NCBI GenBank assembly: GCA_947184155.2
Contig: CAMXCT020000902.1
Coordinates: 553,501 to 617,500 of the forward strand
Source of the DNA: Cladocopium goreaui
Taxonomy: Eukaryota > Sar > Dinophyceae > Suessiales > Symbiodiniaceae
Length of the DNA: 64,000 bases
Direction: 5' to 3'
This document shows positions 1 through 36,610 of the stretch, piece by piece. The first letter of the stretch is position 1, and each line of letters begins with the position of its first letter. The notes beneath the pieces are model-generated. The model saw only the letters and a program-made list of their open reading frames with translations. It ran no database searches and was not told the DNA's origin. The position numbers were made by a program, and so were the translations under genes.

Positions 1-192
1 GCTTATTCCCTGAATTGGTTGATGAGAAAATAGAAACTGGAACTGCATTTTGGGCCGTAATATGTTGTGATGACAGCAGTTTCCTATGATTTTTCCCATT
101 TGTTCAATCCAGAAGCTTGTGATACACGAAGTTCTAGCACCAGGTTGAGTGGACAATGGACATTGAACTGGGGAGAGCAGATGTGACCCCAG

Positions 193-315
193 AGACATCC
201 AAGAATCCAAGCTGGTGCAGCTACTGCAGGGGCAACTCTCCCAGGCATCTGTTGCAGAACTCCAGCATCCCAGCTCAGTGTGGCCTTGCCTTGAGGCAGA
301 TGGACTGCTATGCCG
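193..315 (+). CDS. Gene A exon 1 (unknown helical protein)
   Basis: Internal exon opened by a CCCCAG acceptor. It reads without stops in the frame containing SKLVQLLQGQLSQASVAELQ, an amphipathic helical stretch. I end it at 315, where a GC donor follows TGCCG; the two leftover bases then join the next exon in frame, giving a Cys-Ile-Ala-Cys-Lys junction. A GT donor at 320 is also possible but leads to a stop in the next exon. The true 5' end of the gene probably lies before this window. No family recognised. Confidence 0.5.
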
Positions 316-469
316 GCCAGTGTGAGAATTCACACCCATTTCACGTATAGCTGATATAGCAATAGTCACTATTTAATAGTCACCGTACCTAAGAAGTCAC
401 CTAAAACATCAATTGCCCGGTCCATTGTCAGTTTCACGACATCTCGCATCGCCTGTTGACCTCACGCAG

Positions 470-585
470 GTGCATTGCTTGCAAGGAGTCGGGAAGTGAT
501 GAATCCCTTCTGGATTGGCATGGCCCTGTGCTACAAAGTCAGGATCTCAGGGGTTTCATGGCCCTGCGGGCCCTGGGGGATGAAT
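470..585 (+). CDS. Gene A exon 2
   Basis: Exon after a CTCACGCAG acceptor; one base completes the codon from exon 1. It contains a CIACK cysteine pair and the segment DLRGFMALRALGDE. The chosen end is a GTCAGT donor at 586, leaving one base that pairs with the two-base start of exon 3. No domain recognised. Confidence 0.5.
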
Positions 586-788
586 GTCAGTTGCCAGCTT
601 CCAGACTAAGTTTAGAGATCTACAGGAAAAAGAAGAACAAGCTGCTATGTGTCAATTGTAAAAATCTGTTATTCCATGGTGTTTCTACATGTTTTTCCTT
701 GAATCCATCCATTGGTCATCCCAAACTATCCCCTATGTGGGCCCCAAATCCTACGTTTTTTTTCTAAGGCACTGAGCTGAACCACCAG

Positions 789-933
789 CTGGAGGCTGGG
801 TAATCCCACTGAAGCTGTCCCCAGAAAGGCGAAAACTGGGGGAAGTCCAACAGGTTGCGGAGCAAGTCTTCCGATTCCTCAACAGTGCCGAAGACTTCCA
901 GGTCGGGGCCTCGGGGCCGGCCAGGGTGGCCAG
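789..933 (+). CDS. Gene A exon 3
   Basis: Starts after CCACCAG and reads through a strongly helical, charged segment, ERRKLGEVQQVAEQVFRFLN, to a GTGGCT donor at 934. The phase at both ends agrees with exons 2 and 4. The opposite strand is also open across this region, a by-product of its GC-rich codons; the forward frame is preferred because it chains with neighbours. Confidence 0.55.
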
Positions 934-1234
934 GTGGCTTAGCATGAGATCGGTCCAATGATGCAGGAAGTTGCATGGATTTACCACGTGCAACACCGGA
1001 AAATGATGGTCAATCATGAGACTGCGGGTAATACTGTAACCCAATCTTTTGGCAGACCCGTATAGATCATATAGCCACAGCTATACCACCCAATCGTCTC
1101 AAATGTTGCCAGATTCTTGTGCAAATATACGCAAATATCATATGCCAGAATTGGTTTAAGGGAAACTTACCATTTTCTTTTTGCATGTTTTTACCCATGG
1201 TTTCCGGTGTCCGTGCAAACAGCGTTGAGGCCAG

Positions 1235-1280
1235 GGAGGTTTCCGTGCTATTGCGGTGCCTGCAGCTGACACGGATGGAG
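1235..1280 (+). CDS. Gene A exon 4 (short)
   Basis: A 46-nt exon after GAGGCCAG, reading EVSVLLRCLQLTRME and ending at a GTGTCG donor. Its first base completes the Arg codon left open by exon 3. The frame stays open further downstream, so the 3' limit is uncertain. Confidence 0.4.
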
Positions 1281-1476
1281 GTGTCGATTGAATCGATGAT
1301 GGAAAATGATTGTTTTGATAGTTTTCATTTTCCTCATTTTTTTTATAGATGAATTCTTGATATGTGAGTAATTCTTGTTGGGTGAGATCTACGTTTTCAT
1401 ATGTGTTCCTAATTGTCTTCTGACAGGAATATATATATATATATACATATCTGAAGAATCAAGTGAACATGTGCAG

Positions 1477-1508
1477 AAACATTTGCTGGAAACTGGTTAC
1501 AGCTGCCG
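1477..1508 (+). CDS. Gene A exon 5 (very short)
   Basis: A 32-nt candidate exon after GTGCAG, reading KHLLETGYSC, with a GC donor (CCG|GCGCTC). Included because it starts in the phase left by exon 4 and ends in the phase required by exon 6. Its shortness makes it tentative. Confidence 0.33.
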
Positions 1509-1652
1509 GCGCTCTGTCTTAGGCCCATTTAGGTGCATTTTTTTGGCACCAGATTTTCCATGATTTTCCCCGAAGCCCTGCCACCATTGGTGACCATCCG
1601 CCTGTCATAGAAAACCTCATCCCATGTGGGTTTAAGCCATATGGAGCTCCAG

Positions 1653-1751
1653 GACCGTCTACCTTGGTGGTTGGATGTTCGAGCCTGCCGACGTCGCAGC
1701 CATCGGCCAGGGCCCAGAGAGACCAAGAGTTCTGAACGATTTGCAGAAGTG
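1653..1751 (+). CDS. Gene A exon 6
   Basis: Exon after CTCCAG, containing GPERPRVLNDLQKW. Ends at a GTTGAA donor. Both phases match the flanking candidate exons. The opposite strand is open too, but gives no chain with neighbours. Confidence 0.48.
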
Positions 1752-2176
1752 GTTGAAGGGAACATCTATTTGCAGGAAGTCCTCCATATTTGAATTTCTT
1801 GGAAGTAAAAGGGATGGTCGGTTTCCTGTGAGACTATCCTTAAACTTGAATTCAAAATGAAAGATAAATTTGACAACGAGAGGTGTATAGGGGCCCTACG
1901 CATGCAAAATTGATTGGCATTGGGCCCCACACCGATTGCTGGATGTTGCTGTCGTGCCATGCATCAGAACCTTTACCCATGAAACCTTCCTGATTGAACC
2001 ATTTTTTGGGATTTGCCTTCTTGGGTCATGTACCCATCATCGTCAGTCTCATCATGTCTCTATATATGTTTCTTGTCCTAAGTTTAAGTCAGTATCATAC
2101 TACTGTACCATACTGTAGCACTGTCTAACATGTGTACCACTGTCATCCACTGTCTAAAACTCTATGTTTCCTGCAG

Positions 2177-2229
2177 GAAACAGCCCTTTCCCGGCCTTTT
2201 GCTCAAGGCCTTGGCAAAAGTGTGCCGTG
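2177..2229 (+). CDS. Gene A exon 7
   Basis: Exon after a good polypyrimidine tract and CTGCAG, reading PFPGLLLKALAKVCR, with a GC donor (CGTG|GCCAAA). The phase fits exon 8, giving a Cys-Arg-Gly-Leu-Met junction. Other frames stay open for about 110 nt further, so a longer exon is possible. Confidence 0.45.
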
Positions 2230-2345
2230 GCCAAAGTCTTCCAGAAGACGGACGAGTTTGAGGATTGGGGCACCAAGGTGCGGGAGACCCCGGTGTCCCT
2301 TTGTTCCAAAGGCCTCAGACTAAAGGAGCAGCATGGAGCAACTAG

Positions 2346-2454
2346 TACCCTCCGGTAATGACTAACATAGCTATTGAAAATGGCCCATTTATAGTGGATT
2401 TACCCATTAAAAATGGTGATTTTCCATAGTTATATGTTAGTTTACCAGAGGGTA
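2346..2454. mobile_element. Palindromic MITE family 1, copy 1
   Basis: Near-perfect inverted repeat starting TACCCTCCGGTAA and ending TTTACCAGAGGGTA, inside the intron between gene A exons 7 and 8. The arms carry the shared core (TAGCTATTGAAAATGGCC on one side, its complement on the other). The element would fold into one long hairpin. Confidence 0.85.
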
Positions 2455-2462
2455 ATGATAAG

Positions 2463-2469
<7 letters not shown>

Positions 2470-2505
<36 letters not shown>

Positions 2506-2506
2506 G
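2470..2506 (+). repeat. (ATC)n microsatellite
   Basis: Uninterrupted ATC/CAT triplets directly downstream of MITE copy 1, in the same intron. Confidence 0.9.
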
Positions 2507-2575
2507 CAATACTAGTACAACATGTGCAGTGACACACTTTCTTACGGATTATGGCCCAAAGGTCACAATCCGCAG

Positions 2576-2689
2576 GGCTGATGTCCGGCGAGGCTTTGCT
2601 TCTACGTTTACGTTGGACCTTAGCCGCAGCACAGCTGTGGCCTGCTGATGCCTTCCGTCTCCTGGATGCTCGCCTCAAGCGTCAGTTGG
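2576..2689 (+). CDS. Gene A exon 8
   Basis: Exon between CCGCAG and a GTATGG donor. It encodes an Ala/Leu-rich amphipathic helix, RWTLAAAQLWPADAFRLLDA, followed by RLKRQL. Clear coding look on the + strand. Gene A continues beyond this point, but the next exons are not secure: small candidates near 2845 and 2960 and around 3480-3585 keep the phase but have no recognisable domain. Confidence 0.58.
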
Positions 2690-3599
2690 GTATGGGTCAA
2701 AATTAGGTACCCCAATAATTGGATGGTTAATACTAAACTAGACTAACATCTGTGGTCCCCTAGGTCTTCCATTTTGACCCACATCCAGTTATCTCAATTC
2801 AATTCCAACATCTTTCGAAGCTTATTCTTCAGGGCTTCCACGGTTCCTATCGGTTCCTTGTCCGATTTCATCAGGAAATATCATGATTATTAATTATGAA
2901 TGATTATCATGCACTTGAGCCAAGGATGTGGGCAACAACGGTTGCCTTCAGCGCAAGGATTTGATCTCTGGCCTGGAGCGTTTGGGGGTTGGGGGCCATA
3001 GTTTCATGGAGGATGGAAAGCAAACCTCTGAAATACCTCTGAAAACAGTGGAACCATGTGGAACCCGGAAATGCAACCATGATGATGTGTACTTACTGAA
3101 GATGTATTTTTGAAAAGGTTGAATTTTCATGTTTCGAAATGACTGATGATTTCGGAATGACTGCGTGATGATTTTGAAGATTGGAACGATGATTGTGATG
3201 TCTTTGGGCCATTTTGGAATTGTGTAGATACGCAAATCCTTCCGGATCTTGGATCCTCAGAACCGATGAATCTATGAAGGATGAAGGATGCCTTGGTGGA
3301 CCTTGTGCAACATCAATCAACATCAAATTGGTTGCAAATGGGGTTGTGAATGTTTTGTATAAATGGTTTCAACATGTTTCAACATGTTGCAGCTATTCAG
3401 ATTATTCAGCCATATTCAGCCATTTACCTATTCGAAATGGTGATTTTCCATAGTTTTTTGTATGTTTCCCAGTCTCCGGGTGGTGGCACTGGCGCTGTTT
3501 CGCCCCAGGTCCGCAGTGAAGGTCTGTCGCAGGAGCGCTGGACGCGGCAAGTGGAGAATCTGCCTGGACCTTGTGTCTGTGGACTTGGAAAGTTGGGGA

Positions 3600-3840
3600 T
3601 CTAAAACCTGAAGATGGGATTTATTGAGATTTCATTGGGATGATTTGATTTTGATAATAATATATCATCCTAATATATTGAAATATCATATAACACACTC
3701 ATATAAAAAATATATATGATATGTTTATATAATATATTTTGATTTTGATGGGAACATTGGGATTTCATATAACACACACATATCATATATATATATATTT
3801 ATCATAAAATGTGTGTGTGTGTATTATATTTAGATGGGAC
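3600..3840. other. AT-rich intronic stretch
   Basis: TATATAT/ACACAC-rich sequence with no open frame; probably intron of gene A. Confidence 0.6.
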
Positions 3841-3858
3841 TAATTGGAGAATGTTTGT

Positions 3859-3951
3859 AAAGCAATGTCATAAGCCACCCATATTTGGATGGTTTATACC
3901 AGCCATTTATGCTAAAGCATTGGGGATGGCTTACTATTTATTATTGCTATA
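3859..3951. mobile_element. MITE-like family 3, copy 1
   Basis: Imperfect inverted repeat: GTAAAGCAATGTCATAAGCC on the left and GGCTTACTATTTATTATTGC on the right. Related copies at 4078, 8912, 36205 and 54458. Confidence 0.5.
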
Positions 3952-3961
3952 CCAGCATTAG

Positions 3962-4065
3962 TACCCTCTGGTAAACTAACGTAACTATGGAAAATCACCA
4001 TTTTTAATGGGAAAATCCACTATAAATGGCCATGTTCAATAGCTATGTTAAATTACCAGAGGGTA
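3962..4065. mobile_element. Palindromic MITE family 1, copy 2
   Basis: TACCCTCTGGTAAACTAACG at the left, complementary TTAAATTACCAGAGGGTA at the right; 104 bp, nearly perfect hairpin, TA at both ends. It lies between two family-3 elements. Confidence 0.9.
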
Positions 4066-4077
4066 TGAATCATCTAA

Positions 4078-4203
4078 TGTGGCAAACTCAATAATAAACC
4101 ATCCCCAACAGAGGTTTATTGTTGGGTATACCCTTATTTGGGATGATAAAGTGACCACCCATATTGCTTGGCTAAGTTACAATGGGATGGTCTATTCGCT
4201 GGT
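4078..4203. mobile_element. MITE-like family 3, copy 2 (degenerate)
   Basis: Left end ATGTGGCAAACTCAATAATA followed by AACCATCCCC; a diverged complement, GGGATGGTCTATT, at the right. Confidence 0.4.
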
Positions 4204-4325
4204 GCAGAGGTCGCTCAGTTGTACCAAGTTTGGCAATATCTATGGACCATGGGAGAACCCCTAGGCAATTTGACTGCTTAGATGAATCTAGCCACTAAAA
4301 GAAAAATCATCAAGTCCTTCATCTC

Positions 4326-4422
4326 ACTGGTGCTTAGTAGGGAATGGGGCACTGGGATGAAAAAATCACTAGATATCAATAGTTGTTGTAGATCATTCCC
4401 CCATTCCCTACTCAGCACCAGT
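4326..4422. mobile_element. Palindromic MITE family 4, copy 1
   Basis: Ends ACTGGTGCTTAGTAGGGAAT and ATTCCCTACTCAGCACCAGT are inverted repeats with one mismatch. Related to the copy at 35831. The ends place CTG|GT and CACCAG| where donor and acceptor sites would be. Confidence 0.75.
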
Positions 4423-4756
4423 AAGTCATTACAGGACTGACCCGCATCGGCCATGTTTTCAGAGCTGGTTGCTTCTCAGGTTCCGATGGATGGCCCAAGA
4501 TCACCGAGAGGCAACAGTGACAGCTGGTTCCATATCTCCTAAGGGCCCAAATGCATATTATATATATATATACAATATATATATAGAGAATATGAAATAT
4601 ATAGTGTTATATATATAATATTATATGATATGTAAATGGAGGATTCCTACAATGGAGGTACCCCAAATCATCCAAGTCATTAGACCATTTTGGTTGTGGT
4701 TTTCGGGATCCCCCATTTAAGAAGCCACCGTATGAATACATGAAATACATGGCGTG

Positions 4757-4888
4757 TGGGAGACCTGGGGAGATCCAAAATGTGTCCTTCTCACGAAGGC
4801 ACGTTGGGAGCTCCAGGTGATTTTCCTCGAGGAGTTCCGAGCAGCACTGGAATTCTCATCTGCAGAGGTCAGCAGGCGGATTTTCCAT
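4757..4888 (+). CDS. Candidate gene A exon
   Basis: Open frame containing WELQVIFLEEFRAALEFSSA, strongly protein-like. Possible donors are GTCAGC at 4868 and GTAGCA at 4889; the acceptor is not certain. Assigned to gene A only by position and strand. Confidence 0.35.
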
Positions 4889-5475
4889 GTAGCAATAAAA
4901 ATCATGGTTATAAACATAACATAGTAATAATATGTAATAATGATATTAGCGAGAATAATGATAATAGTAGGGAGCCATATGATATGCGTCTTTCATATTT
5001 TTCTGGCTGGTATCTGGTGGTTTCAAATCTATGTCATTGTTTTTTCAACCATGCATGGGATGATTGGTTGAAATGACAAGCATATTTTTGGGATGGGTTA
5101 AAGCCATTTATAACCCCCAACCAGTTTTGGAATGTTTCCGGATTTTTTGGGATTGTTGCCGGACCGGATAGGTAGCGCACTGTGTAATCTGATGAACTAG
5201 CAATGAGGGGTTCGATGATTGTCATGTTTGCATGCAGTGTAGCCTGCTTTAACATAATAACATGTAACATATCAAACACTGGAGCATCTTTGATTTAAGG
5301 TCGATTCTAATATGATGCTGGCCAGTATGCTGGCCAGTTTGATAGTTTTAGTAAAATTACATTATTGTTGATTGCAATCACTATATAAACATTATTATTA
5401 TTGATCATATTATGTTCATTTAACCAATCCCAATATTATTGTTTTTGTTAAAAAACATGTTGATTTTCATGCCAG

Positions 5476-5573
5476 GCCCTGTCTGTGGCTTCACCTGCGG
5501 CAAGTCCAGCAAGTCCAGCAAGTCCAGCGAGTCCACAGTCTGGCACTGAATGCAACTGAAGTCCGCCTACCCG
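5476..5573 (+). CDS. Candidate gene A exon with 9-bp tandem repeat
   Basis: Between GCCAG and a strong GTAGGT donor. Contains CAAGTCCAG repeated in tandem. One frame gives a Leu/Val/Gln-rich peptide and stays open to the donor; another gives Ala-Ser-Pro repeats ending in a stop at about 5560. The frame is therefore unresolved. Confidence 0.32.
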
Positions 5574-5652
5574 GTAGGTAAACCATAGGAAAACCATAGG
5601 AAAATGGTGGGTTAATGGGATTTAATGGGATTTAATGGGATTTAATGGCACT

Positions 5653-5803
5653 TACCCTCTGGGAAACTAAAATAGCTATGGAAAATCACCATGTTTAATG
5701 GGAAAATCAACTATAAATGGCAATTTTCAATGGAAAATCACCATCGGGAATGGGTAAATCAACTATAAATGTGCCATGTTCAATAGCTATTTCAAATTAC
5801 CAT
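5653..5803. mobile_element. MITE family 1, copy 3 (internally duplicated)
   Basis: Starts TACCCTCTGGGAAACTAAAA. The middle block (GGAAAATCACCAT ... AAATCAACTATAAATG) occurs twice, and the right end is decayed (CAAATTACCATA). Confidence 0.75.
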
Positions 5804-6251
5804 ACCCATGTTCAAGTAGAGTAGCTGGTTAAGATCCACATTCAAGTCTTACTTTATCTTACTTCAGTATCATTTAAAATTTAAAATGAAGATCCGGCAG
5901 AAGACTTGGTCGTTTTGAATGATCGGAAAATGTAATTCGTTCAATTAACCTAGGTTGAAGACACCGTACCTCCCGTCATCTAAGAGTTTGCTACGGAAAA
6001 TCGCCATTGTAGGGAAATCATCGAGAAATGGTGGCATTTTCCATTGATTCTGTGCCACCCTCAGGGCGAACGCTAGCCACAAGCAGGTACGGCTGACTTC
6101 GACAATGCATGACAATGCAGTCCATGTGTCCACTGTATGGAGAACATTGGAGAATCATATTTAGATTTAAAATCATTAAAAACCCATGGCTTCCTGCATA
6201 CTTCCTATGTTAAATCCAATGAATCATGGAGTTTTGTGGTCCACGGGGCAG

Positions 6252-6370
6252 ATTTGATGTCCCATGGGCGGCCTCACAGATCCTGGCGCCGACATCCCCG
6301 AGAGTTGGGACTGGCGTCTTCGCGTGGCCCAGTGATGTGGTCGGCGCCAACACGTCACCATTGAGATCAG
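6252..6370 (+). CDS. Candidate gene A exon
   Basis: Between GGGGCAG and a GTGGGG donor. The frame reads FDVPWAASQILAPTSPRVG and continues open to the donor. Protein-like composition; no domain recognised. The reverse strand is open too, but without matching splice sites. Confidence 0.42.
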
Positions 6371-7048
6371 GTGGGGGGAGGAGATCGGTTTCAAAAATCT
6401 GATTGTCAACCAATGGCTCGCCAGCCCTTGGCGAAACTCTTGGAGACGGTGATGGAGAGAGAGAGAGAGAGAGCACCATAAAAAGTGGATACAAATCATT
6501 CAACATGTTTGAAAGATCTTCATTTCATTTGTGTTCAATCATTGGGGGTTCTGAAGTCGTGGGGGGTCCCAAGTCATCTTGGATTTCTCACTACGAAACG
6601 GAAAAACGTGGATCATTTGGGATGATGACCCTCAATGGGATGATTGAATCATCGTTGCTTGGCTGGGTGCAAGGTGCCTTAAATATGGCAGATGTCACCC
6701 GAAAATGGTGATATCATGTGATTCTTATGTCTGAATTCGATGGAGGGAGGCAGTTGTTGGAATGATGTTTCTTTCTCAGCAGCTTCACCACATCCAAAGC
6801 ATCATGTGATATGGAGTACATATACGTATATATATATTGTATGTGTACACACACACACACATATATATATATACACTGTAATTAGTAAGTCAGCAGTACT
6901 GGGATATATTATGCCATATTATGCCTATGGATCCAAACATTTTCCGAGAATGTACTTAAACCCCCAAATCATAGCCCAAATGCATCCAAATACTTTCTGA
7001 GAAGGTACTTGGATCCATAAGGGTCATAAGATCAAAGAACCAACCAGC

Positions 7049-7154
7049 TACCCTCTGGTAATTTAACACAACTATGGAAAATCACCATTTTTAATGGGAA
7101 AATCCACTATTTCTATGGCCATTTTCAATAGCTACGTTAAATTACCAAAGGCTA
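7049..7154. mobile_element. Palindromic MITE family 1, copy 4
   Basis: TACCCTCTGGTAATTTAACA at the left, slightly decayed right end TTAAATTACCAAAGGCTA. Ends 30 bp before the exon at 7184. Confidence 0.85.
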
Positions 7155-7183
7155 AGTTGTGAGATATCTGACTTTGGCACCAG

Positions 7184-7258
7184 ACCTTGAGACGACTCGA
7201 ATTCGGGAATTCGGTGCCAGGTGCTGTGGGGCCAGCGGTTCCACCGTCCATGTCGCAG
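7184..7258 (+). CDS. Candidate 25-codon exon between two MITEs
   Basis: Between GGCACCAG and a GTACCA donor, exactly 75 nt, open in the frame TLRRLEFGNSVPGAVGPAV. A second frame is open as well. It is framed by MITE copies 30 bp upstream and 49 bp downstream. No domain recognised. Confidence 0.42.
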
Positions 7259-7307
7259 GTACCACAGGTACCATGCTTTGGAGATGACTTTCTCATTGGA
7301 CACCCCC

Positions 7308-7411
7308 TACCCTCTGGTAATTTAACGTAGCTATTGAAAATGGCCATTTATAGTGGAATTTCCCATTCAAAATGGTGATTTTCCATAGCTACGTTAAATT
7401 ACCAGAGGGTA
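7308..7411. mobile_element. Palindromic MITE family 1, copy 5 (intact)
   Basis: A 104-bp near-perfect palindrome, TACCCTCTGGTAATTTAACG ... TTAAATTACCAGAGGGTA. The internal GT-to-AG segment would span 7317-7405 (89 nt). Confidence 0.93.
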
Positions 7412-7793
7412 AATGGTCGCAAATAAGTGTTCTGTAATTTCCCTACAAAACCTTGCTTCTTTGATTTGTTTGTATCTTTTTTGGGGTGTGTTTGCTGGTA
7501 TGAACGGGGGAAAGGGATTATGTGGGTAGGTATGTGGGATTAACATGGATTAATCCAAAAAATGGGGTACAACCAACAATGGCGATATAATTGGAAATCA
7601 TCACAGGTAAGCTACAATGTATCAATATGATCATATTTAATATTAGTGGTTGACCCACTAATGGTCTTTTTCCACCCCACCATGACATGACCATAATGGA
7701 AACATGAGGATCAAAAACATATCAAAACCGGATTTTAGAGGTGCACCCCCCATTGTTGGACTTCGTTTGGAGTTGTACCATAGTGGTATCCAG

Positions 7794-7887
7794 GGTGAAC
7801 ATGGTGAAGCCACCAAGAAACCACCAGGCATTGAGCCCGGCCTCCCCGGGCTTGGAGAACTTTTTGATGTCGGATGAACCCAGCTGA
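7794..7887 (+). CDS. Candidate C-terminal exon
   Basis: After GTATCCAG, one frame reads HQALSPASPGLENFLMSDEP and then meets a TGA stop. A second frame is Gly/Pro-rich and stops slightly earlier. Possibly the 3' end of gene A. Confidence 0.33.
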
Positions 7888-8094
7888 TGCTCATGCTGAG
7901 CTGTGGTCATTCAACGAGCGCTTGGTTATGAGAATGCTAATATGGAGACCATTTATGGATGATTTATATACATTGATTTGCCGAGTTACCTATTACAAGC
8001 TACCGGGGGGTATGCGTTGATTGAAAGCTTGAGAAATGACGCAAGCACACACACACACACGCACACCAATGTGGGACCGTGATGGTCCTCACAG

Positions 8095-8148
8095 GTCTCC
8101 CACGGCTGCTGGGGAACTCAGCGATGGCATGAGGATTCTTGGCTTGTG
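8095..8148 (+). CDS. Candidate short exon
   Basis: Between CTCACAG and a GTGAAT donor; reads SPTAAGELSDGMRILGL or an alternative frame. A GC-rich island in AT-rich sequence; no domain. Confidence 0.27.
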
Positions 8149-8149
8149 G

Positions 8150-9230
8150 TGAATATATATATAATATATAATATATATATAATATAATATATATATATAA
8201 TTATCTATTTATATTTGTATTGTCTATTTAGTATGTATGTATATACGTGCAAAAATGAATATTCCAATGATATATCATGATCCATCATATGTCTTTAGAT
8301 GTCATGCTATCCTCATTTATCCGCAAAGTCCCTCCACATCTATTTGCCCGCCCAAATGTGCAGCAGTTCAAAGTACTTCATCAACCAAGAGATTGGGAGA
8401 ACTGCATTGATTAGAGCATGTCAGAGCTAAAACTCGAGGAGCAAACCTCTCCTGTTGCTAGATTCACAGCCGAAGCAGCTAGCATCTGAGCACCAGCGGC
8501 GCCAGTCTGATACACCCTGTTTGATACATTGGGATACATGGGGCTGAAAGGTCAGAAGCTCCTTGATCGTCCCTTTGTTTTTTCCCCAGGGAACAGCTGA
8601 TTTTTGTTTTTTTTTGCCCTCAGATTCGGTAGATGACACACGCATTGCCACGGACACATACGGACACCATATCAAACAAGTGCATCGCTCCAGCTGTAGA
8701 AGGCCGCGGAAACTTTGCGAAAGCGGCGCAAGGGATGAACAATGTCCATCAAAGTGACCTAGCAATAAGAATCCAGATGTTCAGCTCTTGTGTAGTCACT
8801 ATTGTCAAATTGCTAGGGCACTGTTTTTTTTAAATATGTTTTTTGCTCACAGCTCAAGTGCTTCAAAATTTGGCCAACTCTGAGATCTCAGTGGCCAACT
8901 GTCAGAGAATCCCATAAACCCAATTTCATACACCATCCCCAAGTCATCACATATTCCAACATATTCCAACCATCCCCAGTCGTAGGTTTATGGATGGTTT
9001 ATGGCGTTGGGTTTACCTGCCTACTGCTTTTTACAGCCTGGATGCAGCCTGCCTCGGCAATGGCCGACACAGGCTGGACAGATATTCCGGTATTGCATTG
9101 ATCCGTGCAGATGTGGCAATAACCTGACTTGTCGCGAGTTGCAAGGCTTTTGTACTCTGTAACTGACATGACAGTGGCAAAAAATTGACATATCAGTTTA
9201 TTATAGTTTATTGAAATGAAAAGGTATCGT
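8150..9230. other. No gene recognised
   Basis: TATA-rich microsatellite at 8150-8240, then mixed sequence with short open frames on both strands, and a family-3 MITE-like element at 8912-9016. Confidence 0.5.
8912..9016. mobile_element. MITE-like family 3, copy 3
   Basis: Contains CCATCCCCAAGTCATCAC on the left and GGTTTATGGATGGTTTATGG on the right, with CCATAAACCCAA / TTGGGTTTA as outer arms. Confidence 0.5.
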
Positions 9231-9298
9231 GAATGCATGCCGCAGCCAGCGTCCACATTTCACGCCCTCCTGTGAACTGCACGAAGATTTGCAACGCA

Positions 9299-9455
9299 AT
9301 GGAGGCGCCCAAACAAGACTCTATGACGCCTTGGTGGAAAGGTACGAAATATGACTTTCCGAAAAAGACCCCTGCTTGGTTCGCGGATGGCATTCCTTGG
9401 GATACATTTCAGGAAGGAAAACCGCCCATGGTCTACGATCCTCCACAGTGGCTGG
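9299..9455 (+). CDS. Gene B exon 1 (likely start)
   Basis: Open frame beginning at the ATG at 9299; an in-frame ATG also exists at 9233. It reads WFADGIPWDTFQEGKPPMVY and ends at a GTAGAA donor. The one leftover base joins exactly with the two-base start of exon 2. With the next four exons the frame is continuous: 756 nt, 251 residues plus stop. The N-terminus is Trp/Pro-rich with no obvious signal peptide. Family unknown. Confidence 0.58.
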
Positions 9456-10405
9456 GTAGAAGCTCGGGATAGCGTGGGAGTTGAAGTGAAATACAGCCGC
9501 GGTATGTGTAGAATGTGATGCCTCAACCTTCAATATTAAATATATGTAAATATTACCATAGATGGGTGGTATAAGCCATCCCCAAGTGGTATTCCGAATG
9601 TGGAGTCACCACAATAGTGGCTTGACGCTGAGGTGGGTTCCCGGCTATCTCCCTCATTGCGCTCAGCAGTGCAACTTTTGGTCATATCGTTCCCCTTGGT
9701 GCGTGGTCCCCTGCAATTGCCACTGGGCCGCAACAAAAACCGTGGGATGGGTGTCAGCATGTAACAAGCGTGGCTGAGACTTTGTTCTGATTATCTATAT
9801 ATATATGGTTTGCATTCGATGTGTGGATGTTCATGGTGGATGTTTGGAACAAATTGCCGCCATTCGTCGTCATTGTCATAGTTCGCAAACACGGATGTAC
9901 AGCTGACATGTCCTGAACTCTTTGGCCCAATCTTGTGTCGCCAAGATTTATAAATTGCATTCAATTCCCATCAATTGCCCAAATTCCATGACATTTCCAA
10001 GGGTTCCTGTTCCGAAATAGATCATGTCATGGATCTTTTTCGGCCTCCGTAGCATCCTGAGGCATGGCCTGTTGTCAGTGCTGCTGCATCAAAGACTCGG
10101 AAATTGTCTCCGTGGCGACCTGGAACGTGTTGTGTGTTGATGGCCAGAATTTGCATCGGAAATCATCCCCAATTCCACCAGAAAGAGATGGCATGTATGA
10201 GATCCAACGGTTGGGATTAATTGTGGGTTTGCACAATTAGATGTTGCTAGAAAACTGGAAAGATGTGGAAAGAGATGGAAGGCCATGGAAGGCTATGAAA
10301 AAAGCATGTCTGACATCTGGATAGGAAACTGCACTTTCAGAATCTTTCAGAGCCATTTGGGTCATTATTTGAGCACAATGTGCAAAATTTTGCATATCAT
10401 TTAAG

Positions 10406-10536
10406 CGACCAAAAGGGAAGGTGGTCGGCCGGCCTTGGCATCCTTGGCACCTGAGGATACTCCAGATGAATGGATGACGAAGATGATCACCAGCGGGGCC
10501 AACGAGAAGACTCCGGAATGGATGAATGGCGCCGTG
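10406..10536 (+). CDS. Gene B exon 2
   Basis: Between TTTAAG and a GTTGCT donor, 131 nt. Encodes EDTPDEWMTKMITSGANEKT and finishes on a codon boundary. Hydrophilic; strongly protein-like. Phases at both ends agree with exons 1 and 3. Confidence 0.65.
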
Positions 10537-10595
10537 GTTGCTTTATGGTTTTATAGGGATGATATTGGGATAATACTGGGATATTGATTATGATA

Positions 10596-10677
10596 TACCC
10601 ATAGGATGGATCCGGCTGGTGCTGGTATATTAATGCTAACATAAAGATTGGGGCTATATAAAGATGGGATCCATGGC
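10596..10677. mobile_element. MITE family 2, degenerate copy
   Basis: TACCCATAGGATGGATCC at the left with TGCTAACA in the middle and GGGATCCATGG at the right, matching the ends of the better copies at 20814, 44177 and 60447. Confidence 0.5.
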
Positions 10678-10704
10678 ACACCAAAAAAATGGCAGCACCG
10701 TTAG

Positions 10705-10886
10705 GATCCGTCATGGGATTGGGTTCACCATGGGCTTCACCATGTCCTACATTCTGCCGTGGCCATCGCGCTGGGGCCAGGAATCTTTTGGCTTTGCGAC
10801 AACAACGCGCCATCAGAGACACTCTTTACCTTCCAAAGTGCAGATTGGGCCGAAGGCTCAAAAGTGGTTGCTTGGTCTAGCTTGAC
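10705..10886 (+). CDS. Gene B exon 3, likely membrane segment
   Basis: After GTTAG, in phase 0 with exon 2. Contains a His-rich turn and the hydrophobic stretch VLHSAVAIALGPGIFWLC, a plausible single transmembrane helix, followed by an acidic soluble part. I end it at a GTGTCC donor whose two leftover bases fit exon 4. The intron that follows is about 3.8 kb and holds the giant TACA microsatellite. Confidence 0.62.
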
Positions 10887-10929
10887 GTGTCCAGGTGCTA
10901 ATAATTAGACTTAATTATATAGTTACCTA

Positions 10930-11875
10930 CAAACACATGTAAATAGACACACACACACATATATATACACATACTACATACATATCATATATATATAGTG
11001 ATATATCTATATATATATTACACACATATACATACATACATACATACATACATACATACATACATACATACATACATACATACATACATACATACATACA
11101 TACATACATACATACATACATACATACATACATACATACATACATACATACATACATACATACATACATACATACATACATACATACATACATACATACA
11201 TACATACATACATACATACATACATACATACATACATACATACATACATACATACATACATACATACATACATACATACATACATACATACATACATACA
11301 TACATACATACATACATACATACATACATACATACATACATACATACATACATACATACATACATACATACATACATACATACATACATACATACATACA
11401 TACATACATACATACATACACTACATACATACATACATACATACATACATACATACATACATACATACATACATACATACATACATACATACATACATAC
11501 ATACATACATACATACATACATACATACATACATACATACATACATACATACATACATACATACATACATACACACACACACATACATACATACATACAT
11601 ACATTACAGACAGACAGACAGACAGCCATGCATGCATGCATACATGCATACATGCATACATGATACATGATACATGCATATATGCATACATGCATCCATG
11701 CATCCATGCATCCATGCATCCATGCATCCATGCATCCATGCATCCATGCATCCATGCATCCATACATCCATACATCCATACATCCATACAGACAGACATA
11801 CATACATACATACATATGCATATATACATATACATACATACATATACATATACATACAAACATACATATACGTTT
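10930..11875. repeat. Composite (TACA)n microsatellite
   Basis: About 540 bp of nearly pure TACA repeats (11029-11571) with one interruption near 11420, followed by GACA, CATGCATA and CATCCATG variants. Very long 'proteins' readable across it (Met-Tyr-Val-Cys or His-Thr-Tyr-Ile repeats) are artefacts of the repeat. Confidence 0.97.
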
Positions 11876-11877
11876 TC

Positions 11878-12135
11878 CCAAACAGTGTGTCCACACTCAG
11901 GGGTTCTTACGGTAAGGGTTGAAGGCCGGGGTTTTCTGGGGCACATTTTTTCCTGTGAATTCTCGCATAAAAGTTCCCCTGTGAGATGTGCATTTCCACT
12001 GCGCAGGCTCGCACAAGCTAGGGAGCGCGGTCAGGGTTCATTTGCACTGCGGCATTTTCATTCTGTAAATTCTCGCATAAATGTGCCCTTCTGAGACGTC
12101 CATGTGCATTTTGACTGTGCAGGCTCTCACAGGCT
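11878..12135. repeat. Dispersed repeat with internal ~110-bp duplication
   Basis: Starts CCAAACAGTGTGTCCACACT, then AGGGGTTCTTACGGTA; the same block recurs at 59989. Downstream, AATTCTCGCATAAA and GTGCATTT ... GCAGGCTC occur twice about 110 bp apart. Confidence 0.6.
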
Positions 12136-12199
12136 GGGCGGTGCTTCTGCTCTGTGGCTGTCCATGTGCATTTCGGGTGCTTGAGTATATAGCTGCTTG

Positions 12200-12620
12200 T
12201 ATGAAAGCTCTTCTGGGATGCTCTTGTGAGGTTCTTGCATCTCAATCTTGTTCGATCCCCTCCAGCACCAGCAGGTCCTGTTATGATGACCTTGTGACAT
12301 CCGGGTCCTGGCATGAAGATCTTGGTCAAGGTCTTTTACAATTCCCTGAGCGACGCGAGGATCTTGTAGAGATCATGGTGAAATCCTGTCAGGGGTCCTT
12401 GCATGATCCTGTACAGGTCCTTTTGGGAAGAGCTTGTGGGGATCCTTGCGCAACGCTGTCAGAGGCCTTTGCATGATTTTGTGCAGGTCAGAGGTCCGTA
12501 GTGAAATCCCTTACGTGTCCTTGCATGGTCTCGTACAGGTTCTTGTGACAAGCTCTTGTGGGGATTGTGTTGGAATCCTCCTCAAGAGGTCCTTGCATTA
12601 AGCTCTTGAAGATGCTCTGC
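12200..12620. repeat. Degenerate ~30-60 bp repeats
   Basis: Variants of GTCCTTGCATGATCCTGT and CAGGTTCTTGTGA recur. One frame is open for 131 codons but its sequence just follows the repeat. Confidence 0.5.
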
Positions 12621-14300
12621 GTTGGTGCTTGTCTGACCGTTCTTCTGGGATGCTCATAGGAAGTTCTTGTTTGAATCCTTTAAGATCTTCTATATATAGT
12701 CTATATTGCTTTATATGGAAGTCTTCGACGACCTTTTGAATTCTGTTAGATGTCCTGGTATGAGGTTCTGCCATGAGGTTTTGATGACTAGACATAGCGT
12801 TGTTTCTTGTGCCAAAACAAGTTGCTGCTGCTGCAGTTCCGATACAGTCTAACGTGTTACTGCTCCATAGCTACTGTTGCTGTGCCAAATCTTCGGGGGC
12901 CCGCATGGAGGAATGAGCAAGACATGACCTTTAATCTTTGATGACCTTTTTGGAACATAGAAAACTCAAGTATCTTCAGCATCTACATCCATCCAATTCC
13001 ACCCATCGCATTGAGGCTCAGAAGAAATACTATCACAACTTTGGCGTTCCAGCCAACTGCTTTGGTTGTATTGTCCCTCGGATTTGATGCGGGCGATTTT
13101 CCTGAGAGTGGGCCCCGCCTTCTTGTGGAATGGGTTTGCCTGTGCATTTCCGGAACACACTGTTGATAGGAACTATATAATCTGGATGTTGGGCCTTCAT
13201 GCTTGCGATTGGTTCCATCAAATGGTTCAAGGTAGTGCTGGTGGAAAAATCTAACCTCTCTGTTTTACAGACGGTCGTCGAGAGATTCCCTTGACCTTCA
13301 ACATGTTGATATCAACAGACCTTGTCGATTACAAGTGCTGCCATGTGATACCAAGCTGCAACATATGTTTCCCGATTGTGGCAGGTTTACTCGATGTTTC
13401 GTTTTTCTGCGGTTGTAGGACATAGTGAAATTGCATCAAGTCATGCACTGTAAATTTAAGCTATCTTACGTTTTTTTTTTCCGACCTGACGCCATATGTT
13501 AATTGATATTGTGGTATAGTATAGTGATATTTTTTAAAGGGTTTTTCAGTTGATTTACTTATCTCAGGTTTGTAGTTTCGGTATAATTAATTCGTCATGT
13601 TATTGCCCGTTTCCTGCGGTCACTCCCAGTTCCTGCCACCCAGACGATGTTCGGAGCCGCACTCACGGATTCCACACTTCGTTTGGATTCTCGGAGACAG
13701 CTTCAGTCCATGGCCCTTTTCAGACGTCATTGGCATCAATCATATGAGAGTTCCTGCAAGAGGAAACCCCCAAATCATGAAAAACTTGTTTTTTTCTCCA
13801 TGGGTAATGCAGTAATCAATATGGTGACACGCTAGTTTTCAGAACCCCCATGTCAGCCATGTTATCAAGCATAGTTTTTCGGCACATCCTGCATGATATT
13901 TGGGGCCTCTCTTGGGCAGTTGGGTAAGCACTTTGGCCATCCCCTACCGCTTTGCCAACCTAGGTTGAGGCCTTGAGGCCATCAGTGATACTTTGAAACT
14001 ATGAGTGCTTTCAAGTATTGTTTCATATATATATGTGATATATATATAGACTAGAGAGTATATATATATATACAATAATAATTATTCTTATTGTTATAAT
14101 TATAATAATATATATATATTTCCTATTGTATCAAATTTCCAAGTGTTTCTTTTATTGCCGCAGTTTGTTCAATCCACGTGTCTCACATGTGACTTGCTAT
14201 TTCAATGTCCCATCCATGGTATTGTGCAGATGTTTCCTTAAATCAACCCAATGACAACTGGCCATTTCAGGTGCCTAAATTGGAGGTACCTAAATATTAT
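12620..14300. other. Intron sequence, one possible exon
   Basis: Mostly non-coding within the long gene B intron. A GC-richer open patch after CTCCCAG (13630-13760) could be an exon, but it is not needed for the gene B frame. Confidence 0.4.
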
Positions 14301-14331
14301 ATATATATGTATATATATATACTTGTCTATG

Positions 14332-14672
14332 TGTGTGTGTGTGTGTGTGTGCAATTGTATACAAACACACGCACACACACATATATACATAACATATAAT
14401 GTAAATGTAAATGTAAATGTAAATGCAAATGTAAATGTAAATGTAAATGCAAATGTAAATGTAAATGTAAATGCAAATGTAAATGTAAATGTAAATGTAA
14501 TGCAAATGTAATGTAAATGTAAATGTAAATGCAAATGTAAATGTAAATGTAATGTAATGTAATGTAATGTAATGTAAAGTAAATGTAGTGTAAATGTAAT
14601 GTAATGTAAATGTAATGTAATGTAAATGTAATGTAATGTAGTGTAGTGTAATGTAATGTAATGTAATGTGTG
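14332..14672. repeat. (GT)n and (AAATGT)n microsatellite
   Basis: GT dinucleotides, then ATGTAAATGTAA / ATGCAAATGTAA units, decaying to ATGTA pentamers just before gene B exon 4. Confidence 0.95.
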
Positions 14673-14700
14673 TGGCCTATATTTTAGCGCTAGATTTCAG

Positions 14701-14851
14701 GGGATGTGCCCCCAAGTTCTATCGGGTCCCTTTCGAAGCCCCGAAGGAATTGTCGCCCAACGACAAGTGGATCAACCTCTATGGCGCGGGGCCAGGGTGG
14801 ATCTACGTGGGCCAACCGGAGGATGGGGGGCACCCGGCAGATTATGAGGAT
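14701..14851 (+). CDS. Gene B exon 4
   Basis: Between GATTTCAG and a strong GTGAGA donor. Encodes NLYGAGPGWIYVGQPEDGGH within an open 50-codon frame. Clear coding character and strict phase agreement with exons 3 and 5. It starts only about 30 bp after the hexamer microsatellite. Confidence 0.7.
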
Positions 14852-14889
14852 GTGAGAGTCACAATACATGCAATGCATACATCCATCCA

Positions 14890-15225
14890 TGCATATCTAC
14901 ATACATACGTACGTCCGTACAAATACAATACAATACAATACCATACCATACCATACCATACCATACATGCAGAATTACGTTACATGACATTACACTACGT
15001 TACGTTACGTTTCATTGCATTACATCACATCACATTACATTGCATTGCATTGTATTGCATTGATGCATACATACATACATACATACATGCATGCATGCAT
15101 GCATGCATACATATATACATGCATACATACATACATACATATATATATTCATATATATATATATATATATATCTATATCTATATCTATGTATACAATTAT
15201 ATATATCTACATGTGTGTGTGTGTG
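14890..15225. repeat. Composite ATAC/ATAT/GT microsatellite
   Basis: Mixed ATACA, CATTA, TACGT, ATAT and GT tracts in the last gene B intron. Confidence 0.9.
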
Positions 15226-15445
15226 TGCTTATCTTTGTGTTTAAATCTGATGGGATGTGGGTACGATTCCAGAACAGTAGTGATCGAAATGACTTGGTTT
15301 GCTGTGTTCCCTACTTGGAGGATCACCCAACTGGGTAGAAACCATTTTTAGCCACTGAAAAAACAGGATAACCCTAATCGGGCACTGTTTAAATCTTATG
15401 AACCGTGGTTATGCACCACTTCCTTGATCTAAGTGGCCAAAGCAG

Positions 15446-15580
15446 GATACCTTTGAATGCAAAAATGCGGCTGTGGATGTGTACGGCGAAAGCTTCAAAC
15501 CCGTGACGGACCTCAACGAGATGCTACGTGTGAGCCACAACGACGAGACGCTGCCATTGTCGGAGCCCAACTACCAGTGA
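15446..15580 (+). CDS. Gene B exon 5, C-terminus
   Basis: After AAAGCAG in phase 0. Encodes VYGESFKPVTDLNEMLRVSH and ends at TGA (15578-15580). A good GTAAGA donor follows the stop by 4 bp, possibly a 3'-UTR intron. Completes a 251-residue reading frame. Confidence 0.66.
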   Translation, partial: DTFECKNAAVDVYGESFKPVTDLNEMLRVSHNDETLPLSEPNYQ

Positions 15581-15805
15581 CTTGGTAAGATTCATCTCCC
15601 TGTTTTTTGGCTTCAAACAGTTGTATTATGGGGTATTAATGGAACATTAATGGGGTATTAATGGGATATAAAATCAACAATCTGATGTTTGGGTCTGTGT
15701 GAAAATTAACCATAATTATTAGCCTGTTGGTAGGGAAAATGATGATTAATCAATGTATTCGAGGTACCCTATTTTCAGACAAACCCACATATTAATGGGC
15801 AACAG

Positions 15806-15927
15806 GCTTCCATGGTTCCGTCTCGGATCTGTCTTATGATACGGTAGTTCCGCCGTGGCGCAGCCGAAGGTATCGAGTGCGTAAAGTGGCATATATGGAC
15901 AGCTATGGCAAGTTGGTGAAAACTGAG
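15806..15927 (+). CDS. Candidate exon (gene C?)
   Basis: After CAACAG, open frame with the basic segment RSRRYRVRKVAYMDSYGKLV, ending at a GTGCCT donor or a TGA 12 nt later. Lies only 225 bp after the gene B stop, so it probably belongs to the next gene. Confidence 0.42.
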
Positions 15928-16478
15928 GTGCCTTGGTGATTCCAAACATTTCCAAGCTATTCCTATGTTGTTCCTATGTTGTTCCTTTATGATATGTTTG
16001 TGCATGTAGAATGGGGCCATTTTTGCATATTTTTGCCTCTACATGGTCATCCCCATGTGGCCATGGGCCCATCCCTGAACCTTTGGGACCCCGAGTTAGA
16101 CGTTGCTTTAAAATTCCCATTGGCTATATATAGTAATATAGTATACTTAATAGATTATATACATTTATATACGCTGTAATACATCGTTTTATTGCCATGA
16201 ACCCATTTTTTTCCATATACATTTTGTAGTACATTGAGACTATACGGGATATAAACTTTGCCATAGGCTATAACCACATATATTATATAACCATATATAT
16301 ATATAACCCATATAACGTATTTAACTTGTGCCATAATATATCCAAAGTGTCTGGGAAATGTTTGTTGCCCCGGAACCAATAGCTACACGACGCTTGCTCG
16401 ACCCATTGAGGCCTGGGATGAATTTGTGAAGCGAGTGGCTGGGCATATCCCTGAAATTTGACCCTTACATCTGTTAGG

Positions 16479-16582
16479 TACCCTCTGGTAATTTAACATA
16501 GCTATTGAAAATGGCAATTTATAGCGAGTTTTCCCATTGAAAATTGTGATTTTCCATAGTTATGTTAGTTTACCAGAGGGTA
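16479..16582. mobile_element. Palindromic MITE family 1, copy 6 (intact)
   Basis: 104 bp, TACCCTCTGGTAATTTAACA ... GTTAGTTTACCAGAGGGTA. Confidence 0.93.
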
Positions 16583-17118
16583 CCTCCAATTTAGGTAAAA
16601 TAGAACACTCTATTGAGAGAGAAGAAGGACATCGTTCTGGCGGTCCGCAGCCGGTCACGGCTTGAGCGCCCGTAAATAGATGACTCTCCGGAATGATCAA
16701 GGTAGTGGATCTAGAGGGTCATGTCCATTTCAAATCGACCAAAGGGACCAGTGGTTTGGGCGGGAACTCTGCACTGTTGCCAGCGCCTGATGTTTCCCCC
16801 TGATGGGAAACAAGAAAAAGTGTCACACATTATAGCAACACCAAACTAGATGCCGAAAAGTGGGAAACCTGCTATTTTTTGGTGGTAAATATATGTAAAG
16901 ATCATCAAACTACCATCCTGGGAACACGTTCGGCTTTTTTTTGGGGGGGTTGCGATAATTCAGTCGTGTCTCCCCCATTGTGAGTTTCTGAGGCAAAGGT
17001 GCCATTTGCACCCGGAACAGAGCCGAATCTGGGGCAAAAAACAGCAGTTTCATGGAGGGACCACAAGATGTGTAGATACCAGTAGCAGCAATGTCCTTTC
17101 AGAAACATAGCATTGCAC

Positions 17119-17264
17119 TGGCCCTCTGAAAATTCAATATCGCTATGGAAAATTCGCATTTTTAAATATCGGTAGATATGTGTACATAACATATATAATA
17201 TTCAGTAATCCATACATAGGCAATGGCAGCAATTGTCCATAGCCATGTGATCTACCAGATGGTA
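17119..17264. mobile_element. MITE family 1, decayed copy
   Basis: GGCCCTCTG and CTATGGAAAATTCGCATTTTT at the left, CCATAGCCATGTGATCTACC and AGATGGTAA at the right; the middle is replaced by AT-rich sequence. Confidence 0.5.
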
Positions 17265-17489
17265 ATTTCCTAAGCGGTATCCGACGGGTTAGATGTACAG
17301 TCTCTTCCGTAGATGGCTAGCACTGCTAGCAAATGCATTATATGTGCTACAGATAAAGTTCACTTGCATGGTATATCAATGGTATATTGTATGATATAGG
17401 TTCATTTGTGTATCAACATGATCAAGAAATTGAATATGCACACAGTATAGCAACCCCTCAAAAAAAAAGGTAGAACATGATAGAACCAC

Positions 17490-17660
17490 ACTATCCCCGC
17501 GAAGACTTCGTTGCCCAGGAACTGCTGTGGCTATTGCTTTTGCTGCCGTTCAAAGGAGTTCCTTGGCGTCATTTTGTCGTTGACTTTCGCCTTGGGACCT
17601 GTGGATCTGAGAGGCACTTGGTCCAGAAACTTGGTGCCTGCGGATTTGTTGAATTTCTGT
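17490..17660. other. Open patch, strand uncertain
   Basis: GC-richer island open in two + frames (one Leu-rich after TTGCCCAG) and one - frame. No splice phase chain found with neighbours, so not called as an exon. Confidence 0.3.
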
Positions 17661-17819
17661 GATTTTTTTCTGGCGCTTCCCAGCTATGCCCTTCTATTTT
17701 TTGCCTTTTTGTGGATACGTGCGATTTATGTTCATGTGACCACAAGAAGTTAAATACTTGAAGAAGGGGAGCTCAGAAGCAACTGAACCAACTTCGGCGT
17801 AAATGGCCCTTAAGTCCAG

Positions 17820-17926
17820 CTACCAGCAAAGAGCGAAGACTGGTGATTGGACCTGCCCACTGGCACCCGGGCTGAGGGACCTGGCCTTGGGGCGCTATCC
17901 TCACACCAACACCAAGTTGATCCTTG
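17820..17926 (+). CDS. Gene C exon (unknown)
   Basis: After TAAGTCCAG; contains TGDWTCP and LALGRYPHTNTKLIL. Ends at a GTTTAT donor with one leftover base that matches the two-base start of the last exon. No clear zinc finger: the two-cysteine knuckle is not completed. Confidence 0.45.
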
Positions 17927-18230
17927 GTTTATGTTCGGACCCTAAGTGCTGAAGGATGCTGGAGCCCTCTGGAGTCATGGATGACCCACATTGGAAACCC
18001 GGGAGTCACGGATTGGACCTGGCAGGGGTATGTTATCCCTCTGATGATGCGAGAAGTAAGTGGCGTTTTGACCATCCGAGATATTCCGAGATGTAGTTGG
18101 AGCGGAAACGTTTTCCCGAGTTTGGGGCAGGATTTCTGAGACAATCTGACCACTGAGTTTCTTCAGAGGCACAGAAACACACGTCAAATTGCATTGTTTT
18201 GATTTAAGTTTTGCATGATTTTTCTTCAAG

Positions 18231-18376
18231 CTTTTGGTGAACCTCATGGGATCCCAAGCACTGATCCAGATGGCGAAATCGATCGCGAACGGGCACCGCG
18301 GTTCCTGAGGATTGTGAAGTATGCACCGAGCACCAAGTCGACCGCGCCAGCTCAGACCATTGGAGCCCAGCAGTAG
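18231..18376 (+). CDS. Gene C C-terminal exon
   Basis: After a pyrimidine tract and CTTCAAG. Encodes DGEIDRERAPRFLRIVKYAP and ends at TAG (18374-18376). Strong coding look. A MITE lies 54 bp after the stop. Confidence 0.58.
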
Positions 18377-18430
18377 TCACATGACGCCACGTTGACGTTG
18401 CACTTGGGGATTTTTATGGAGTATACTGAT

Positions 18431-18536
18431 TACCCTCTGGTAAACGTACAAAAAACTATGGAAAATCACCATTCTAAATGGGAAAACTCACTATAAATGG
18501 CTATTTTCAATATCTATGTTAAATTACCAGAGGGTA
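18431..18536. mobile_element. Palindromic MITE family 1, copy 7
   Basis: TACCCTCTGGTAAACGTAC ... TTAAATTACCAGAGGGTA, 106 bp, in the presumed 3' UTR of gene C. Confidence 0.92.
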
Positions 18537-20524: not shown

Positions 20525-20620
20525 TACCCTCTGGATCCGTCTGGTAATTTCACAAAGCTATGGATACTATGGAAAAACACGTTTTTTTTAGAGGTTAATC
20601 ATGGTAAACATATGTAAAAA
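20525..20620. mobile_element. MITE family 1, decayed fragment
   Basis: TACCCTCTGGATCCGTCTGG then TAATTTCACAAAGCTATGGA; the right arm is not recognisable. Confidence 0.4.
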
Positions 20621-20813
20621 TCATCCACTCAAACGGGCCATGGCTTCCATAGCAACTGCCGTGGAGCTTCCGTAGACACCCAAGGCCGGGCGTTTCAAGG
20701 TGAAGTGGCACAAACACTCCTCGCCTGGCCCGCAGTTCGTCGCGGGTTTGACCATGGGAATGAATGGGTTTGATAGTGACTAATGAATACTAATGGTGAT
20801 TAGGTGTGATTAG

Positions 20814-20916
20814 TACCCATAGGATCCATGGTGCTGGTATATATGCTAACAGAAAGGGGGTATATTGATGGGATCCATGTTACCATATATAGCAGCACGA
20901 TGGATCCTATGGGGTA
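20814..20916. mobile_element. Palindromic MITE family 2, copy 2
   Basis: TACCCATAGGATCCATGG at the left, ATGGATCCTATGGGGTA at the right, with TGGTATATATGCTAAC against its complement inside. TA at both ends. Confidence 0.8.
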
Positions 20917-23701: not shown

Positions 23702-23817
23702 TACCATCTGGTTATTTAACACCGCCATGGAACATCACCATCTTTAATAGGTAAACCATCTACAGTATTTCAATGGGCCATCTATACCATTGCTATGTTA
23801 GTCATAACCAGAGGGTA
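23702..23817. mobile_element. MITE family 1, copy 8 (diverged)
   Basis: TACCATCTGGTTATTTAACA ... GTTAGTCATAACCAGAGGGTA. Belongs to a variant whose ends read CTGGTTATTTAAC, as also seen at 36510 and 41773. Confidence 0.8.
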
Positions 23818-24457: not shown

Positions 24458-24530
24458 GTATATTTGGGCACCAGTTCCGCCCTCCAGCGACTATGTGGCT
24501 GTCGGCATGTTGTGCACCACCGTGGATGAG
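24458..24530 (+). CDS. Exon with Vps13/Vps62-like motif
   Basis: After CCCTGAG, reads WAPVPPSSDYVAVGMLCTT and then VDE to a GC donor. The pattern W-x-P-x-P-P-x-x-[DG]-Y-V-A-[LV]-G is the repeated motif of Vps62/DUF946 proteins and the Vps13 adaptor-type region. Neighbouring exons were not found, so this may be an isolated exon of a long gene or a remnant. Confidence 0.42.
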
Positions 24531-24654
24531 GCCAGAGTTGGGATTGGCGTGGGACAATGTTGAAGTGGGTCTCAAAATGGAATAGAGTATACTTCCAATT
24601 AGCAATTATGACCTATCTTCAGACAAACCCAGATATTTATAGATGATATATATA

Positions 24655-24690
24655 TATATTATTATTATTATTATTATTATTATAAAGATA
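24655..24690. repeat. (TAT)n microsatellite
   Basis: ATATATATATATTATTATTATTA-type tract. Confidence 0.85.
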
Positions 24691-36600: not shown

Positions 36601-36610
36601 TGAGATGTAG

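Follow-up and report, generated by a model that had tools for sequence, protein, structure and literature searches.

The 64-kb stretch of DNA analysed here, referred to below as the window, contains at positions 7308-7411 (plus strand) a near-perfect palindrome of 104 bp, measured TA to TA, with ends TACCCTCTGGTAA...TTACCAGAGGGTA. Its two arms, 49 nt each, are 88% complementary across a 6-nt loop, and 88 of its 104 positions are self-complementary. This copy served as the example in a preliminary description of the window, which took it for a palindromic MITE with inverted ends; the long complementary arms, the fixed ends, and the many dispersed copies documented below all agree with that designation.

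The ten long open reading frames of the window have no match in Pfam. Six-frame Pfam scans, with stops written as X, covered both strands of 1-10,001, 15,200-35,200, and 35,500-55,500 as well as the plus strand of 55,500-64,000, while 10,002-15,199 was scanned through three long open reading frames; the minus strand of 55.5-64 kb, plus one plus-strand frame, had no match among PDB sequences. Short dinoflagellate exons could escape such scans. Two matches were rejected: a CitMHS match at about 28.7-29.9 kb on the minus strand (E 1.4e-6), which lies below the curated cut-off and falls in a Met-rich simple repeat, and a DesK_N match (E 0.006), likewise below its cut-off. Scans of the window with Rfam at gathering thresholds, for tRNAs, and for spliced leaders found nothing.

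A family of palindromic elements

A search with the single sequence 7308-7411 found the other 11 members of a hand-listed set of 12 copies, each with an E-value of 4e-8 or better. A profile built from these 12 scores its own members, by construction, at 71 to 105 bits, whereas 50 dinucleotide shuffles of the window reached 13.6 at most. A larger profile finds, at E<=1e-3, 21 non-overlapping copies in the window, 13 of them full-length, where the preliminary description had recognised at least 14, and all 11 start coordinates given there belong to genuine copies by profile. Allowing at most two mismatches, the motif CCCTCTGGTAA of the ends is found 42 times in the window against 14.2 +/- 3.9 times in shuffles, a count that none of 100 shuffles reached.

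Full-length copies lie at 2346-2454 and 16479-16582 on the plus strand and at 7049-7154 and 18431-18536 on the minus strand. Further profile matches include plus-strand copy 41191-41299 and, on the minus strand, 45540-45649, 44745-44855, which has an extra G before its right TA, and two copies with GGTTA-type ends, 23702-23817 (116 bp) and 41773-41886. Two more minus-strand copies sit within other repeats: 3962-4065 inside a different palindromic repeat (3920-4108), and 35557-35663 at the TA of a tandem unit. Less regular examples, all on the minus strand, are a rearranged copy at 5653-5802, seen as two overlapping profile matches with an internal duplication, a truncated copy at 36510-36596 (43 bits), and a diverged copy at 40385-40475 (37 bits).

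We derived a consensus from 79 copies, comprising the 12 window copies and 67 full-length copies scoring at least 60 bits in 200 kb of the genome to which the window belongs, taken from regions picked for their copy content. The consensus is 104 bp long, TA to TA, and palindromic at 82 of 104 positions. Substitution divergence from it has a median of 6.7% and a minimum of 1.9%, values biased low by the choice of regions through exact end matches. The consensus arms differ (GGTAATTTAACATAGCTATTG versus GGTAAACTAACATAACTATGG), and the element therefore has an orientation. It has no coding capacity, each of the six frames being interrupted by stops.

Long hairpins, with predicted energies of -27 to -67 kcal/mol, are formed by either strand of the 12 window copies. 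Transcribed copies might thus act as precursors of small RNAs, by analogy with MADE1, a human element of 80 bp with two 37-bp terminal inverted repeats that gave rise to mir-548 (PMC1784062). Folding of this kind is expected of any palindrome, however, and we consider such a role for the present family rather unlikely.

Other repeats accompany the family in the window. A second palindromic family has TA-CCCATAGGATCCATG ends (20816-20913 and 44180-44269), and a third, with ACTGGTGC...GCACCAGT ends (4326-4422 and 35831-35943), likewise reads CTGGT...ACCAG. A fourth palindrome-like repeat (TTGGGGATGG...) occurs at 3920-4108, 39772-39855, and 54453-54537, the first of these being nested with the MITE copy at 3962. 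A 72-bp hairpin at 60336-60407, with GGACCTTTGGTGGCGGAAGTCA arms, is higher in G+C than the MITEs. Short tandem repeats with units of 10-12 bp are found at 5612-5648, 15623-15665, 20924-20954, 24281-24328, and 58833-58859; by eye they resemble inner pieces of the MITE (TTAATGGGAT, ATGGTGATTC, CCATTTATAT), and it is possible that they are slippage products of MITE interiors.

Insertion at TA and abundance in the genome

TA had been described as bordering every good copy and was attributed to insertion of the Tc1/mariner type. It is present at both ends of 11 of the 12 hand-listed copies, the exception being 44745-44855 with its extra G, and 149 of the 158 arms in the consensus sample begin with TA. 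AT-rich sequence adjoins the insertion TA (81 sites). Related sites that lack the element have a single TA, as opposed to two at occupied sites, and TA is therefore the target-site duplication, as the attribution supposed. One case is the copy at 35557-35663, where the occupied tandem unit reads ATGATAT-TA-[element]-TA-ATGATTATCTGG while an empty unit reads ATGATAT-TA-ATGATTATCTGG. This neighbouring empty-site relative (35490-35550, plus strand, matching from 35498) has one TA against two, and the joined site at 35557 aligns better with one TA (score 108) than with two (score 101).

A search with 88 joined sites returned 16 rows, of which three, from two sites, were clean; L017_7679 and L027_4399 (two rows) were ambiguous, and the remaining rows were self-overlaps, other MITE copies, or AT-rich noise. 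The copy at L023 9225-9345 has empty relatives at 2688-2780 of the window (minus strand) and at L018 1202-1294, with 85-86% identity over both flanks and one TA each. The copy at 41191-41299 has an empty relative at L020 7530-7591, with 79% identity and one TA. The copy at 3962 splits its host palindromic repeat, whose relative at 39772-39855 (minus strand) lacks the MITE and, at 72% identity, has one TG at that place. A separate observation, made by eye, is that 16479-16582 and 41191-41299 have similar flanks (...TAGG-TA...TA-CYTCCAAT), as if the TA of one repeat had been hit twice; the indication is weak, since aligning 200 bases of flank locally failed to recover it.

Counting two intact 13-nt ends with 70-100 nt between them, the genome (1,165,616,438 bases) has 29,897 places with perfect TACCCTCTGGTAA and TTACCAGAGGGTA, and none with the reversed pattern. 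Exact 17-mer ends number 27,439, and the 200 kb picked for copy content hold 135 copies. With intact copies of 96-126 bp numbering about 30,000, the family amounts to roughly 3 Mb, a large component of the genome, and it is a useful marker for dating and for empty sites. Among the first places listed, copies on contig C2 look unevenly spread, with concentrations at about 0.63-0.89 Mb and at 1.43-1.67 Mb and few copies between them. In viral contigs, three exact 17-mer matches were put down to chance (the profile gives two of them 10 bits and the third no score), and a pattern with 19 specified bases was not found there.

Stowaway-like MITEs are short, non-coding, and high in copy number, with a TA duplication, and MADE1 likewise has a TA target-site duplication. 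The present family is like these Stowaway or Tc1/mariner MITEs, MADE1 included, as a short, non-coding near-palindrome of very high copy number with a TA duplication; the assignment is to Tc1/mariner-like or Stowaway-like elements on a single character, the TA duplication. We know of no element whose end sequence matches CCCTCTGGTAA. The literature searched contained no description of the 104-bp family, and a search with its end letters returned no title on MITEs or dinoflagellates. The family is new, and its kind is already known.

The ends TACCCTCTGGTAA are the terminal inverted repeats, which a transposase acting in trans would recognise and which are presumably kept because elements without intact ends would not move. 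The Tc1/mariner-type transposase domain DDE_3 has only eight matches in the genome, and no autonomous element sharing the ends of the family was found, one of the eight loci (L048, C2234:23400-26800) having been read. The 3.4 kb read at that locus contain an open frame of 397 amino acids encoding the DDE_3 protein, but neither ends like those of the family nor clear inverted repeats. Equal-scoring matches occur at two places on C4 and on C3580. The protein may possibly be the product of a domesticated transposase gene.

Splice-site geometry of the ends

The preliminary description had also read the inverted ends as ready-made splice sites on both strands, and had compared the family to introners. 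GT and AG stand in register on 19 of the 24 strands of the window copies, and among copies bounded by TA 126 of 140 strands have both. The claim fails for the remaining window strands: the minus-strand acceptor AG is lost in 2346-2454, 41191-41299, and 41773-41886, the plus-strand acceptor AG in 7049-7154, and the GT donor at the left end of 45540-45649. These counts speak for an introner, an element that, having landed in an exon, would be removed by the spliceosome at its own CTG|GTAA and ACCAG| sites. So does precedent, introners with terminal inverted repeats and 4-bp target-site duplications having been reported in Symbiodinium microadriaticum (PMC9860276) and introner-driven introns in dinoflagellates (PMC11453091).

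The length that such splicing would leave behind points the other way. A scar of 15 nt had been proposed, which is correct if both TAs are counted, but one TA is added by the insertion itself, and the net gain over the empty site is therefore 13 nt. With the alternative acceptor CCAGAG| the net scar is 11 nt. Either length shifts the reading frame, whichever strand is transcribed, whereas most reported introner families keep the mRNA length or change it by whole codons, added or removed (PMC9860276).

Nor is there any sign that GT and AG are under extra constraint compared with neighbouring end positions. Among the 149 arms that begin with TA, conservation is 96.6% at each of the two GT positions, and 97.3% and 98.0% at those from which AG derives; for comparison, positions 3-6 range from 95.3% to 99.3%, position 13 stands at 99.3%, and position 12, at 83%, reflects a GTTA subfamily. 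The geometry itself comes with every palindromic end in which both CT and GT occur, and it appears in 21% of random TA-starting palindromic ends of 13 nt. Stricter forms are rarer, with GTRA..AG in 2.1% and GTAA..YAG in 0.6% of random palindromic ends, and the rarity of the latter, which is the exact form seen here, counts against a purely incidental resemblance.

If spliced transcripts were copied back into the genome, the spliced-scar 15-mer TACCCTCTGAGGGTA would be expected, a prediction that tests splicing jointly with retroposition. The 15-mer occurs twice genome-wide, against four times for the reversed control. One occurrence, at L033, forms the terminus of a diverged match to the MITE (43 bits), and the other, at L032, has a MITE fragment 18 nt away. 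The spliced scar is thus at chance level.

Copies in kinesin genes and relation to known introners

Kinesin (PF00225) has 104 matches in the genome, from which nine multi-exon loci (L034-L042) were taken, mostly for their long spans. Exons were mapped using intronless kinesins from the same genome; several exons between the detected blocks went undetected, and one in L042 (about 780-908) was found by eye. L038 and L039, which share their exon matches and their MITE copy, look like one gene on two contigs. In six loci (L035, L036, L037, L038, L040, and L042), each of the 15 copies at E<=1e-3 falls in the space between detected exons, clear of all of them, a result to be read with the undetected exons in mind and with a choice of long spans that favours long introns over introner introns of about 90 nt. 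This count takes the copy shared by L038 and L039 once and leaves out a weaker copy in L035 (E 0.009). No copies were found in L034 and L041.

Two introns could be placed by continuity of the protein on both sides. In L042, the intron 909-2410 (CGC|GCGTCT...CAG|GTC, a GC-AG intron) contains a MITE at 925-1048, 16 nt inside the donor, and the joined exons read continuously as EVR|VSFLEVY. In L037, the intron 5531-6551 (CGG|GTTCAG...CAG|GTC, GT-AG) contains a MITE at 6348-6473, and the joined protein is the continuous NVINALTEKTGRHVPYRDSK. Both introns use splice sites other than those of the element, which argues against excision of the MITE by itself. Placed from one side only, a putative acceptor AAG|GTAATG in L036 lies 43 nt after a MITE, and a putative GC-type donor in L037 about 59 nt before one. 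The GC donor and AG|G acceptors seen in these loci agree with those described for Symbiodinium (PMC4083563), and the genome is therefore of dinoflagellate type.

The same distances bear on a looser form of use, in which one end of an element would occasionally serve as a donor or an acceptor inside a longer intron or an untranslated region, leading to exonisation or alternative splicing. MITEs only 16, 43, and about 59 nt from exon boundaries offer the opportunity, and even weak signals might by chance be recognised; on the other side, native sites and not those of the element give continuous protein in both resolved introns. We judge such use unlikely, if better placed than the hairpin-RNA role considered above.

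The resemblance of the ends to splice sites is probably a coincidence, since the frame would shift and the genic copies examined sit in ordinary introns. With GT and AG not extra-conserved, the scar at chance level, and all 15 kinesin-locus copies off exons, the introner reading of the preliminary description is very hard to maintain, and we give it hardly any weight. Scarcely more credible is an orientation-free introner outside coding sequence, whose copies in untranslated regions or non-coding RNAs would be spliced at their own palindromic sites on either strand; a 13-nt scar would be harmless there because the exons in which it landed would be transcribed but non-coding. What we consider very probable is that this is a palindromic MITE family of about 104 bp and very high copy number, that its resemblance to splice sites is incidental, and that its genic copies ride in pre-existing introns. 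Such copies would be passengers, their own sites presumably left unspliced. A tempting introner claim thereby becomes a clear negative for the samples tested, and a palindromic element with GT..AG ends makes a poor introner candidate unless the duplication length and the scar together keep the frame.

Comparison with reported introners sharpens these differences. Those of S. microadriaticum (PMC9860276) are alike in being non-autonomous, with inverted ends, in a dinoflagellate-type genome; of their two splice sites the 3' one lies in the element and the 5' one comes from the 4-bp duplication, whereas the 104-bp family, with its TA duplication, would have to provide both and would cause a frameshift. 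Aureococcus introners (PMC9860276, legend to Fig. 2F) are alike in having both splice sites inside the element and in leaving a scar in the mRNA, which is however of 12 nt, or four codons, where that of the 104-bp family would be 13 nt. Further sources treat introners (PMC10666404 and PMC10522408). The introner elements of Amoebophrya (PMC7789003), also of the dinoflagellate lineage, share the inverted repeats that form a hairpin; they are annotated as introns, and direct repeats of 3-5 nt span their exon/intron boundary, in contrast to the genic MITE copies examined here, which sit inside larger introns.
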